The translations under genes were made by a program, and so were the position numbers. This document shows positions 4,709 to 38,350 of a DNA stretch of 64,000 nucleotides, one piece after another. The notes beneath the pieces are model-generated. The model saw nothing but the letters and a program-made list of their open reading frames with translations. It was not told the origin of the DNA and did not search any database. Source of the stretch: Methanosarcina acetivorans C2A (GTDB lineage Archaea > Halobacteriota > Methanosarcinia > Methanosarcinales > Methanosarcinaceae); NCBI RefSeq assembly GCF_000007345.1, contig NC_003552.1, forward strand, positions 3,534,001 to 3,598,000, written 5' to 3'. Within the stretch, counting starts at the first letter, position 1. Each line of letters starts with the position of its first letter.

Positions 4709-5704
4709 TTGTTTGTAAGGCATAAGAAAAATCCCATACTTACAGTTGAAGACTGGCCGTATCATGCTAATTCGGTTTTTAACCCTGCAGCTGCCATAGT
4801 TGACGGCAAAATACTATTGCTGGTGCGTGTCGAAGATCACAGAGGCATTTCTCATCTTACAGTAGCCAGGAGTAATAATGGAATCGACGGCTGGGAGATC
4901 GACCCCGAACCGACCTTTGTCCCGGATCCTGTCAATTATCCTGAGGAGATATACGGCATTGAAGACCCACGCATAACCTACATTGATGAGCTGGGGAAGT
5001 GGGTTGTAGCGTATACAGCTTTTTCGGACTCCGGCCCCTTGCCGGCTCTTGCCTTTACGGAGGATTTCCGCAATTTTGAGAGAATAGGCCCCGCCCTGCC
5101 CCCTGAAAATAAAGACGCTGCCCTCTTTCCCGTAAGATTTAACGGCAAATGGGCAATGATACACAGGCCTGTGCCTGCTATTCACGGTATGAAAGCGAAT
5201 ATGTGGATCTCCTTTTCTACAGAAATGGAAGCCTGGGGCGGGCATCAGGTCCTTCTCTATGCCCGGGAAGGGGGATGGTGGGATGCCTATAAGATAGGAT
5301 TATGCCCGCAGCCGATACGTATACCCGACGGCTGGTTAATTATGTATCATGGAGTGCGCCCGACAATGCCAACAATAAGTTATCGGCTTGGGCTTGCTCT
5401 CCTTGACCCTGAAGACCCGAGAAAAGTCCTCCGCAGGTCTGAAGGCTGGGTTTTCGGGCCTCTCGAACTCTACGAACGCAGCGGAGATGTCAACTATGTT
5501 GTTTTCCCCTGCGGATGGGTTGTGGTGAAGGATGAACTTCGTATTTATTACGGAAGTGCGGATACATCTATCTCAATGGCCAGCGCAAAAATGAGCGAGA
5601 TCCTGGAATATGTCCGTGAATGCCCTGAAGAACAGTGTCCTGAAGAGTACTGCAGATTTTTTGAGGGGAACAGGAGGAGGGTTACTGACCTGAAAAGAGG
5701 CTAA
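4709..5704 (+). CDS. GH130-family glycosidase/phosphorylase, copy 2
   Basis: 331 residues, nearly the same protein as copy 1 at 795 (RHKKNPILT, VRVEDHRGISHL, GIEDPRIT, IYYGSA all present) with a slightly longer Arg/Lys-rich tail. The start is TTG 4709 with GAGGAG only two bases upstream, which is close for a ribosome site. The frame is open back to the stop codon of the ATPase at 4654, which is in the same frame. It probably shares a transcript with the ATPase. Divergence between the copies is concentrated in the middle (about residues 160-225), possibly changing substrate preference. Function by family only; substrate unknown. Confidence 0.85.
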   Translation: MFVRHKKNPILTVEDWPYHANSVFNPAAAIVDGKILLLVRVEDHRGISHLTVARSNNGIDGWEIDPEPTFVPDPVNYPEEIYGIEDPRITYIDELGKWVVAYTAFSDSGPLPALAFTEDFRNFERIGPALPPENKDAALFPVRFNGKWAMIHRPVPAIHGMKANMWISFSTEMEAWGGHQVLLYAREGGWWDAYKIGLCPQPIRIPDGWLIMYHGVRPTMPTISYRLGLALLDPEDPRKVLRRSEGWVFGPLELYERSGDVNYVVFPCGWVVVKDELRIYYGSADTSISMASAKMSEILEYVRECPEEQCPEEYCRFFEGNRRRVTDLKRG

Positions 5705-32252: not shown

Positions 32253-32848
32253 CATATCCCCCATTGATATTCCCAATATAAACTGAGTATATGGAATGAT
32301 GCGCCATTCAAATATATCCTTTGTTTAAATTGCGGTTTGATTTGCAGTCATCTGAACAGTTCTTCAACGATTTTGCAGAAATTTAAAACATAACTCACCC
32401 ACAAATAACAGTTATAAGTCAGAAATCGTAATCTCACAATTCTAAAACCATGATCTTGCGACCATGCCCATATGTTCTATGCTGTATTTTCTCACATTTC
32501 AGAATCTGCTTTTTTCGGGTAAAATTTTCTGGTTGCAGGAGCAGAATATAATCAGATATTAATCAGATATTTTCTTAAACTTCCTATTTCAATTGGAGGA
32601 AATTTTTCAAAGTGAGGCATTCTATGTACGGATGAAGATGTCCAATCCATGATGCTTGGAAATGAAAGATTAAAGTTCAGTAACTAAGTTCAGAAAGCCA
32701 GATTCCTATGCTTCTTTAATTCACAAGACCAACCTTTATTGATTAACAAAAAACCCGAATTGGGGATAGGTATGAAAAATGTAAGCATGAAAACAATTTT
32801 TTCTGAAAATAGTATGGACTAGTATTATTGAAAGAGGGGGAGTTAATT
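32253..32848. other. Intergenic stretch upstream of the TIR cluster
   Basis: About 600 bases of AT-rich sequence. No gene, RNA or repeat of note apart from a short AATCAGATATT duplication near 32550. Divergent promoters for the META lipoprotein and the TIR cluster probably lie here. Confidence 0.4.
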
Positions 32849-32983
32849 TTGAGAAAAGAAAATCGAAAACCATCTTTTCAACCTGAGCCAATACCTTCTC
32901 CGGAACCGCAACCGGTTCCTTCACCCGAACCGGTACCTGAACCCGAACCGGAGACTGAACATAAGTCCGAAAAAATAGGATAA
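32849..32983 (+). CDS. 44-residue Pro/Glu-rich micro-protein before the TIR gene
   Basis: TTG start with GAGGGGGA seven bases upstream (32834-32841). After a basic N terminus (LRKENRKPSF) the chain is an alternation of Pro and Glu (PEPIPSPEPQPVPSPEPVPE) and ends in a charged tail. Extended polyproline-like rods of this kind act as spacers or binding tails. It ends 21 bases before the TIR-domain gene, consistent with one transcript. It could be chance, but the ribosome site and clean repeat structure support it. Confidence 0.5.
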   Translation: MRKENRKPSFQPEPIPSPEPQPVPSPEPVPEPEPETEHKSEKIG

Positions 32984-33004
32984 TACAGGACAAATATAGC
33001 AGAC

Positions 33005-33565
33005 ATGATAACAAAAGTTTACATTTCGCACTGCGAGCAGGACGAACCGCTCGCCCAGGAACTTGCAAGGGCTCTTTGGACAGTGGAACTGGAAAGCTTC
33101 TCTGCCCTGTACAGGAAAGCCCGGATTCTTTCCCTGGCTGAAAGGATACGTTTCGGTATCCGTCAGTCAGACTGCATTATCCCTATTATTACCCAGGAAG
33201 GAGTGCTGTCTCCTGAGGTGAATCAGGAGATCGGGCTGGCAGTAGGAGCCGACCAGTTGATAATTCCGCTGGTAGAGGCAGGAGTCGAACTGCCTATCCT
33301 TATACGCCATCTTCCGCCGATTAATTTTTACCCCGAAGCCTATGAGGATGCCCTTGGAAAACTCATACAGAACATGAGGCAGCTTACGAAACTGGACTGG
33401 CTGAAGATAAAGTGCCCTTACTGCGGGGAGGAAATGACCCAGTATATCTCTCCTGAAGAAGAAGTTGAAAGAGCGCTTCTTGCAGGAAAACACCTTGAGA
33501 CTATCTGCAGCTACTGCCAGAGAAATATTTACCTTGACCCGAGAACCTTCAGGCCCACACCCTGA
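33005..33565 (+). CDS. TIR-domain protein with C-terminal zinc ribbon
   Basis: 186 residues. Residues 1-125 match the TIR fold: VYISHCEQDEPLAQELARAL as first strand and helix, SDCIIPIIT as the strand-C region, and SPEVNQEIGLA in the place of the TIR NADase glutamate motif (Ser...Glu). Residues about 135-175 form a zinc ribbon with CPYC and CSYC knuckles. TIR domains in prokaryotes are often NAD+-consuming defence or signalling enzymes; whether this one is active is not shown. It lies between a micro-protein and a 111-residue protein, 31 bases before the latter. Confidence 0.8.
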   Translation: MITKVYISHCEQDEPLAQELARALWTVELESFSALYRKARILSLAERIRFGIRQSDCIIPIITQEGVLSPEVNQEIGLAVGADQLIIPLVEAGVELPILIRHLPPINFYPEAYEDALGKLIQNMRQLTKLDWLKIKCPYCGEEMTQYISPEEEVERALLAGKHLETICSYCQRNIYLDPRTFRPTP

Positions 33566-33596
33566 GTATCTTTAACCTAAAAAGGGAGGCAAATTC

Positions 33597-33932
33597 ATGG
33601 AACAAAGTGTTAAGGACGAACCCGGAGAACCAATGGTTGCACAGTCCAAAATGGGGGAAGCTACCGTGAGCGAGACTGAAATCAGGGGTATTGAAGAGCT
33701 TACACCTGTTGAAAAGAAACATTTGCTGTTACAACTTTCCAGGGACAGAGCAAAAGACAGGTCTACCGGCCCATGGGAAATTGTTGATGTCCGCAGGGAA
33801 GAATGGGAAACCGTTAAAGCTACCCTGGTTCAACCCGTAGAAATTGACATCAGGGATACAGGGAAAGCCGAACTCTTCAGGGTATGGTTCGACATCACAA
33901 AGTTAGAAAGAGAACTTGAGTCCGTAACCTGA
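33597..33932 (+). CDS. Small acidic protein of unknown function linked to the TIR gene
   Basis: 111 residues from ATG with AGGGAGG a few bases upstream. An N-terminal disordered, acidic segment is followed by a compact region (ELTPVEKKHLLLQLSRDRA, GPWEIVDVRREEW, ELFRVWFDITKLE). No motif, signal or membrane segment is recognised. Close spacing to the TIR gene suggests a shared transcript. Its last codons are echoed twice downstream as a tandem repeat. Confidence 0.7.
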   Translation: MEQSVKDEPGEPMVAQSKMGEATVSETEIRGIEELTPVEKKHLLLQLSRDRAKDRSTGPWEIVDVRREEWETVKATLVQPVEIDIRDTGKAELFRVWFDITKLERELESVT

Positions 33933-34360: not shown

Positions 34361-34549
34361 TTATTTCCCTGAAAACGCCTTGCTGACATCGGCAGCGTTG
34401 GTGTACTCCTTCTCTGGAAGTTCTTCGAGAACCTCCATCACCTTACTGTCAGCTTTGTGCTTTTTAGCGTGTTCGATAAGCTGTTTTTTCTTCGCAGGAT
34501 AATCCATATTCTTTAAAGCTTTTTGGACTTCGATAGGACTCGTTTGCAT
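34361..34549 (-). CDS. DUF2795 domain protein
   Basis: 62 residues, ATG with GGGGGA six bases upstream. The pattern Q-KAL-NMDYPAKKKQLIEHAKKHKAD...VLEELPEKEYTNAADVSKAF is that of the DUF2795 family of small helical proteins (function unknown, present in bacteria and archaea). Single gene. Confidence 0.85.
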   Translation of the reverse strand: MQTSPIEVQKALKNMDYPAKKKQLIEHAKKHKADSKVMEVLEELPEKEYTNAADVSKAFSGK

Positions 34550-36903: not shown

Positions 36904-38350
36904 ATTACGTCATCCATCACTATTTTTTTCTTTTTGCCTACTTACCTATTCCAACCATCATCTCTAAACCTTCCTCTATTTACATGTGGATCCAATGCTT
37001 GACTTTCATATACACTCATCATAGTTTCAAAAGTTCTTTCAATTCCACATCTATGAAGAATCACTGTCAATAAATTTGAAGCATTTTCGGCAAATATTAT
37101 ACTCCATCTCTCTTGAGTATATCGCACCATCTTTTCAGGCTTAGCTGACTGTTCTTTACTATAGAATAAGCTGTACTGTTCTTTACTATAGAATAGATTC
37201 TTCTGCTAACGATTAACGTCAACATTGCCGTCCAGAGTAGAGCTTCAATTACCTGCACATTCTTTGTCTCAAGAACGTCAAGAACGTATTTGCTTTTCAA
37301 CTCCTTAAACAGCAGTTCTATATCCCATCTTGCTCCATATAATTTTGCAATGTCTTTTGCATTTAAAACATTTTTCTGTATGTTTGTAATATATATGTGA
37401 AAATTTTCCTCTTCACTGTTATATATTGCAACAAGACGTACGTTCATCTCATCTTGTTTTTGCTTGCCTTTATATGTTCTTCTTTTAAATGTTATTTTCA
37501 CAACAGCATCAAGATCTTTTCCTGAGAGTTGCTTAATACATTCGCTAACAGTTTTTCCAGCAAACTCTTTGCTTTTTGTCTTAGAAAGTCCCTCTTCAAC
37601 AGAAACAACAATGAGATCCATATTTTTCATAATTCTTGAGACAAAATATCCTCCATTTTCCTCAACTCTTGCAAACATTTGATTTTTGTAAAATCCAAGA
37701 TCAACAAGAAGAATACGGTCTTTGATCCAGGGACCTATTTTCAATGTTTTTATCTCGGCTGTTTTTTCAGAGTACAGAGCAACTGTTTTAGGTCCGTTAG
37801 CAACCGCACTTACCATAACTCCCACTTTAACTCCTGCAGCTACATTTCTTGCTCTTGCTGCTGGAGACTTATCGGTTAAAGAGGAGTGAAGGCGAACAAT
37901 TGTACTGTCCTGAATGAAAACATCCTTAAAGTTTTCGAGTTTTTTGCTAAGTTTTCTTCCAGATTCTTTTTCAAGCTCTTCTATGCCGTGAATAACACAC
38001 TGATGAAGAAACTCAACAAGTTATGGAGTGAATTTATAGTACCAGCTGCTGTCTCTTATGGTATTATTTACTTCTTTTTCATATTCTCTTTTCAAACTGG
38101 CGAGTGTACGCTGCAAGCATACACCAAAACCAAGAGTTAAAACTCAAAAGATGAAGACAGGATCAATTTTACGTTCACGTTTTATAAGACCGGTTTCTTT
38201 GGCAGTTTGCCTTAACCAATCTTCGGGAAACATTTCCCGAAGAGAGTCTTCGAGAGAGATTGGGGGTGAGGTGATATAGACATACTATTATCAAGTTTTG
38301 TTAATATAAAAACACGTACAGGAATGCTTCTCTAACGCTTAACCGATGAC
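36885..38350. mobile_element. Decayed IS4-family element
   Basis: About 1.47 kb bounded by inverted GTCATCGGTTAAG (36885-36897) and CTTAACCGATGAC (38338-38350). It contains the broken transposase gene on the minus strand. The element is not autonomous. Confidence 0.6.
36942..38268 (-). pseudogene. IS4-family transposase pseudogene
   Basis: The N-terminal part reads EDWLRQTAKETGLIKRERKIDP, then stops (TGA, later TAA) interrupt it before DVFIQDSTIVRLH (first Asp). A 242-codon open stretch (37097-37825) holds ILLVDLGFYK (second Asp) and YGARWDIELLFKELKS (Glu motif Y-x-x-R-W-x-I-E). The last part continues in another frame. A near-tandem repeat (AYSIVKNS) sits close to the C terminus of the open stretch. 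Confidence 0.85.

Follow-up and report, generated by a model that had tools for sequence, protein, structure and literature searches.

TIR proteins of prokaryotes are commonly interpreted as immune effectors with a patchy distribution. The question raised by a TIR gene of the methanogen Methanosarcina acetivorans C2A is whether it too belongs to an antiviral cluster, as an earlier note on this DNA had suggested, or whether it has a role in normal cell physiology. We addressed this question in a window of 64,000 nt from the genome, which is a single contig of 5,751,492 bases; all coordinates are positions in that window. As the note had described, three closely spaced ORFs lie on the + strand: a 44-aa Pro/Glu micro-protein (32849..32983, with a TTG start at 32849 and the stop codon at 32981-32983), a 186-aa TIR-zinc-ribbon protein (33005..33565) and a 111-aa partner protein (33597..33932), separated by gaps of 21 nt and 31 nt, respectively. 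Pooled dN/dS values were 0.16 for the micro-protein, 0.08 for the TIR protein and 0.13 for the 111-aa protein. All three ORFs are genuine proteins under purifying selection. Promoter and terminator scans at the locus gave no signal exceeding that of shuffled sequences.

The identification of the 186-aa product as a TIR protein was borne out by both profile and structure comparisons. Pfam family PF13676 (TIR_2) matched it with E=2.3e-11 and 44.7 bits against a cut-off of 28, over residues 5-121 and all of the profile (1-122 of 122), and matched 18/18 aligned members of the TIR-zinc-ribbon family. The nucleoside deoxyribosyltransferase family, PF05014, also matched 10 of these 18 members, with a best E-value of 1.5e-4. 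An AlphaFold2 model (24 sequences in the alignment; pLDDT 88.6) displayed a TIR domain at residues ~1-128 followed by a two-knuckle zinc ribbon at residues ~132-184. In VIA, where the rows for this protein cover residues 1-138 only, the top fold relative was the SPARTA TIR (Z 18.0, 2.0 A, 126 residues, 21% identity), and the others included the SARM1 TIR (Z ~15.5), Toll-related chains and DNPH1/deoxyribosyltransferase chains. A search of solved structures by sequence returned weak matches only. The TIR domain is of a known kind. The C-terminal zinc ribbon reported earlier also stood: Cys137, Cys140, Cys168 and Cys171 form two CxxC knuckles with confident strands in the model and are invariant over 23 diverse members. 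No curated zinc-ribbon family scored above its cut-off on the 186-aa protein; the ribbon bears a weak similarity to nucleic-acid-associated ribbons.

Residue Glu75 (codon 33227-33229) is the candidate catalytic residue. An alignment of 23 members with identities as low as 23%, taken from Methanosarcinaceae, the haloarchaea and a second methanogen family, showed 12 invariant columns: M1, D13, E75, G77, A79, R125, W132, C137, C140, C168, C171 and P179. Glu75, which the earlier note had proposed as an NADase glutamate and whose absence from a structural alignment it had named as the observation that would count against the idea, is thus present in every aligned member of the three groups. Profile alignments pair it with the active-site Glu that BcmB and BlsM, two CMP N-glycosidases, carry in 'SPGTHxEIGWA', and also with the Glu in the WxxxE motif of BtTir; the E-values were weak (0.3-1.6), yet the register agreed. 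From what is established about these families, the aligned residues of BcmB, BlsM and BtTir are the catalytic ones, and the MilB E103A entry fits this. The protein carries EIGxA at Glu75 and has no WxxxE, and the residue at position -4 from Glu75 varies in Methanosarcinaceae. These features suggest that its substrate preference may differ from that of NADase TIRs.

The same stretch bears on whether the domain is an enzyme at all. It could be a non-catalytic scaffold that only assembles, with a structural role for the conserved Glu and with the Pro/Glu rod as a linker-like ligand. The animal adaptor TIRs MyD88 and MAL fit the fold nearly as well, and the WxxxE Trp is missing. However, no stretch of the TIR domain other than Glu75-x-Gly-x-Ala stays invariant down to 23% identity, and N-glycosidases and deoxyribosyltransferases carry this motif in their active sites. 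We consider the scaffold very unlikely.

Comparison with known systems places the protein near several of them and inside none. SPARTA TIR-APAZ, the short prokaryotic Argonaute NADase, is the nearest solved fold to the M. acetivorans TIR domain (Z 18.0) and uses a catalytic Glu, with E77A as its dead control (PMC10474274). In contrast to SPARTA, the 186-aa protein ends after the zinc ribbon without an APAZ region, there is no Argonaute among its neighbours, and its inheritance is near-core and vertical. NADases of the SARM1/BtTir/AbTir type share the TIR fold (SARM1 Z ~15-16), and Glu75 is in register with the BtTir Glu, but the 186-aa protein is of the EIGxA type without WxxxE and lacks a SAM/ARM or coiled-coil regulatory domain. 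The CMP N-glycosidases MilB, BcmB and BlsM and the nucleoside 2-deoxyribosyltransferases (PF05014) have the 'SP...EIGxA' active-site motif in common with it and match it structurally, whereas PF13676 is clearly its best family and the zinc ribbon is an addition. TcpA and TcpO are TIR proteins of other archaeal lineages, likened here by description only; TcpA has Glu-dependent NAD chemistry (PMC10937652). Thoeris ThsB gave a weak TIR-model match (best 6.9e-4 among members, with the M. acetivorans protein under the curated score), but no ThsA effector adjoins the M. acetivorans TIR gene. The CAP12/Pycsar TIR effector family PF10137 reached 11.8 bits on the 186-aa protein against a cut-off of 24.7 (E=0.24).

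The earlier note had recognised no named defence system in the cluster, and our searches agree with it. PADLOC gave no match on the three genes, the closest being LmuB at E=0.08 only, and its sole match among ten neighbour genes was a marginal CARF-TM, ~9 kb away; NCBIfam likewise had no named defence system above its cut-off for the cluster. The TIR-zinc-ribbon gene had no match in IMG/VR or in phage and plasmid collections, which rules out viral or plasmid carriage as far as these collections reach.

The distribution of the gene is that of an old resident of these genomes. It occurs in 26/30 genomes of the genus Methanosarcina, almost always in one copy, and is split by a frameshift or stop in two of the genus (G150 and G175). 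A second family within the class has it in 33/33 genomes (>=90% complete). We infer this family to be Methanotrichaceae, as a close relative lies on a contig labelled Methanothrix. Among haloarchaeal-type genomes (a group label that is likewise inferred) it is patchier than in the methanogen groups, with a single match in each of 44 of 194. The gene is missing from most Methanolobus genomes, from several of Methanococcoides and from most haloarchaeal families; thus, it is not essential. In the protein tree of the family, members largely cluster by taxonomic group; L062 is the one clear exception. The neighbours change from group to group: Thi4-like and radical-SAM genes in Methanosarcina, RuBisCO in Methanococcoides, carbonic anhydrase and MsrA in Methanolobus and, by eye, a ribosomal-protein operon in several genomes of the second family and aMBF1-tpiA (triosephosphate isomerase) in haloarchaea. 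Beyond the two small genes, neighbourhood comparison found no partner gene common to the TIR loci across genera. We conclude that the TIR-zinc-ribbon gene is an old, near-core, single-copy and mostly vertically inherited archaeal gene.

In six Methanolobus loci (L071, L072, L073, L075, L076 and L077) the 111-aa gene is replaced by a ~90-aa winged-helix gene (MarR-like, by eye) directly 3' of the TIR gene, and these loci have no Pro/Glu ORF. We rejected this gene as a functional partner of the TIR gene, as it travels with the general synteny.

These results do not support the antiviral reading: the gene is near-core and nearly always single-copy, its tree largely tracks taxonomy, its neighbours are housekeeping genes, and PADLOC, IMG/VR and the phage and plasmid collections hold no match to it. 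We rejected a mobile defence system on the basis of its presence in 33/33 and 26/30 genomes, nearly always as one copy among housekeeping neighbours, notwithstanding the patchier haloarchaea (44/194). A chromosomally fixed anti-virus (abortive-infection) NADase is a separate matter. Such an enzyme would deplete NAD+ or make a cyclic ADP-ribose signal upon infection, with the small proteins as its sensor or inhibitor, and vertical inheritance is compatible with a fixed defence role of this sort. Among the prokaryotic TIRs that have been characterised, most act in defence, and the closest solved folds here are defence TIRs (SPARTA). Small, faster-evolving partners would suit sensors or inhibitors, and both the TIR and the 111-aa genes are occasionally lost or disrupted. 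However, near-universal, single-copy and mostly vertical inheritance, housekeeping neighbourhoods, the lack of mobile-element carriage, the want of a convincing PADLOC match in the cluster or its neighbours, and the absence of an adjoining second effector all argue the other way. We regard such an NADase as unlikely.

The micro-protein consists of a core, QPEPxPxPEPxPxPxPEP, and a basic C-terminal tail. The core is kept, with rare single departures, in five genera of Methanosarcinaceae (Methanosarcina, g4, g5, Methanococcoides and g10). The TTG start and good ribosome site read from the sequence earlier were corroborated by conservation. The Shine-Dalgarno-like GAGGGGGAG lies at 32834..32842 (+), 5' of the TTG, and most orthologues have a G-rich site at a similar distance, with its first base 12-15 nt 5' of the TTG. 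In 33/37 copies of the ORF the TTG is exactly ten codons 5' of the motif Gln; three Methanococcoides copies instead have an upstream ATG and an extension, and one g5 copy has no usable start at the TTG position. Minor-base fractions at codon positions 1, 2 and 3 were 0.079, 0.045 and 0.385. This variability and the fixed TTG start rule out a chance ORF. TTG starts are ordinary for small ORFs of M. mazei, at ~20% of unannotated sORFs, according to the main text of the Ribo-seq paper, where no TIR entry is named (PMC11456600).

The micro-protein is tied to the TIR gene. Searched as a DNA pattern, its motif turned up in 36 of the 111 family genomes, exactly once in each. Every one of these copies (36/36) shares its strand with the TIR gene and lies <400 nt upstream of it; family genomes without the TIR gene had no copy. 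As the TIR-less genomes of the motif-bearing genera also lack the motif, loss of the two is shared. The distance from the micro-ORF to the TIR start is not fixed (12 to 290 nt), whereas the amino acid sequence is conserved, which disfavours coupling to the TIR gene by a leader peptide. The 290-nt gap belongs to L091, where a tract of short tandem repeats (AACAAAGTAACCAGAGAA-like) separates the two ORFs.

The 111-aa gene is found in exactly the 31 TIR-bearing genomes of three genera (g1, g4 and g5). It always lies <400 nt downstream of the TIR gene, and none of the remaining genomes among 392 of the phylum carries it; its linkage to the TIR gene, noted earlier in M. acetivorans, thus extends to three genera. 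Several copies bear a stop or frameshift despite a dN/dS of 0.13, so we view this protein as the least constrained part of the locus. Its model (pLDDT 82.6) has one helix, an antiparallel sheet and a C-terminal helix. No Pfam, NCBIfam or PADLOC family matched it, and we found no convincing paralogues in the same genome. COMMD chains gave Foldseek probabilities of 0.80-0.96 but E >=0.02, with a VIA Z of 3.5 and no Pfam match. Since neither this Z nor the best VIA value (5.3, 5eql) rises above background, we did not assign a known fold. In L084 and L085 (genus g5 and a deep Methanosarcina) the homologue has an N-terminal extension of imperfect repeats (NQHKVNQHKVNQPE...).

Whether the three genes form a unit depends on which gene is followed. 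The earlier note had held that the cluster would lose its meaning if the genes were apart in most genomes. In the genomes searched, neither small protein was found without the TIR gene, and to that extent the linkage stands; most TIR genomes outside the clade lack both small genes, and to that extent it does not. The TIR-zinc-ribbon genomes outside the clade are those of the second methanogen family, the haloarchaea and Methanolobus. Thus, the micro-protein and the 111-aa protein are clade-specific accessories and not parts of an obligate three-gene system. A type II toxin-antitoxin arrangement is compatible with gene order and co-occurrence in Methanosarcinaceae, whereas many TIR-zinc-ribbon genomes have neither small gene.

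Based on these results, we propose with moderate confidence that the 186-aa protein, which is passed on vertically, is an N-glycosidase of NAD+ or nucleotides whose zinc ribbon serves as a targeting tail, and that in Methanosarcina and its relatives it has two clade-specific partners. Glu75 of the TIR domain would cleave the N-glycosidic bond of NAD+ or of an NAD-like or nucleotide-like substrate. The zinc ribbon may bring the enzyme to a nucleic acid or a protein partner. We believe that the enzyme would work in normal cell physiology and not as a mobile anti-phage system. The TIR protein of Methanosarcina and its relatives would have gained two dedicated partners from the same gene cluster: upstream, a stiff, polyproline-type Pro/Glu micro-protein and, downstream, a small beta-sheet protein. 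Both would be expected to bind the TIR protein and to control its assembly or activity.

The target of the zinc ribbon is where a different enzyme can be envisaged. The ribbon may bind RNA, and the TIR domain may strip nicotinamide from NAD-capped RNA, or remove another end base, in routine turnover. Archaeal TcpA and several bacterial TIRs take nicotinamide off NAD-RNA (PMC10937652). The haloarchaeon Haloferax has been shown to have NAD-RNAs, and the Nudix proteins tested from S. acidocaldarius gave no decapping (PMC10663502). With Glu-dependent archaeal TIR chemistry on NAD and NAD-RNA demonstrated (PMC10937652) and archaeal NAD-RNA processing unexplained (PMC10663502), an RNA-directed enzyme is a fair rival. 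The weak likeness of the ribbon to nucleic-acid-associated ribbons and the ribosomal-protein genes that adjoin the TIR gene in some second-family genomes also suit it. However, the archaeal TIR TcpO has no NAD-RNA activity (PMC10937652), and zinc ribbons bind proteins too. On balance we think it improbable. A broader version of our own proposal is that an ancestral TIR-zinc-ribbon N-glycosidase is core housekeeping in Halobacteriota, with NAD-capped RNA or a nucleotide signal as its possible substrate, and came under control of the rod in Methanosarcinaceae; we consider this rather unlikely.

In the open papers searched, we found no description of a near-core archaeal TIR-zinc-ribbon architecture or of a Pro/Glu micro-protein partner. 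The N-glycosidase proposal would imply a single-copy TIR enzyme that is present in all genomes searched of one methanogen family, common to methanogens and haloarchaea, and set in a housekeeping context. In M. acetivorans and M. mazei, the gene would offer a genetically tractable case for TIR roles beyond immunity. The micro-protein offers a clean case of a small protein that is conserved, starts at TTG and is tied to a single enzyme; if the broader version of our proposal is true, a polyproline-rod micro-protein would be a kind of TIR regulator without earlier description.

The window also contains several features outside the cluster. A DUF2795 protein (34361-34549, -; E=5e-23) lies near it, and in other Methanosarcina genomes several tandem copies of DUF2795 are found 3' of the TIR gene, with five in L082. 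A 242-aa DDE transposase (PF01609) ORF at 37097-37825 (-) begins inside the Pfam domain, at profile position 72, and is probably an insertion-sequence remnant, ~3 kb downstream of the cluster. At 795-1754 and 4709-5704 (+) are two closely similar ORFs of 319 and 331 aa, both starting MFVRHKKNPILT; the 819-aa ORF between them reads like a cation-transporting P-type ATPase, and the pair around it is possibly a local duplication.
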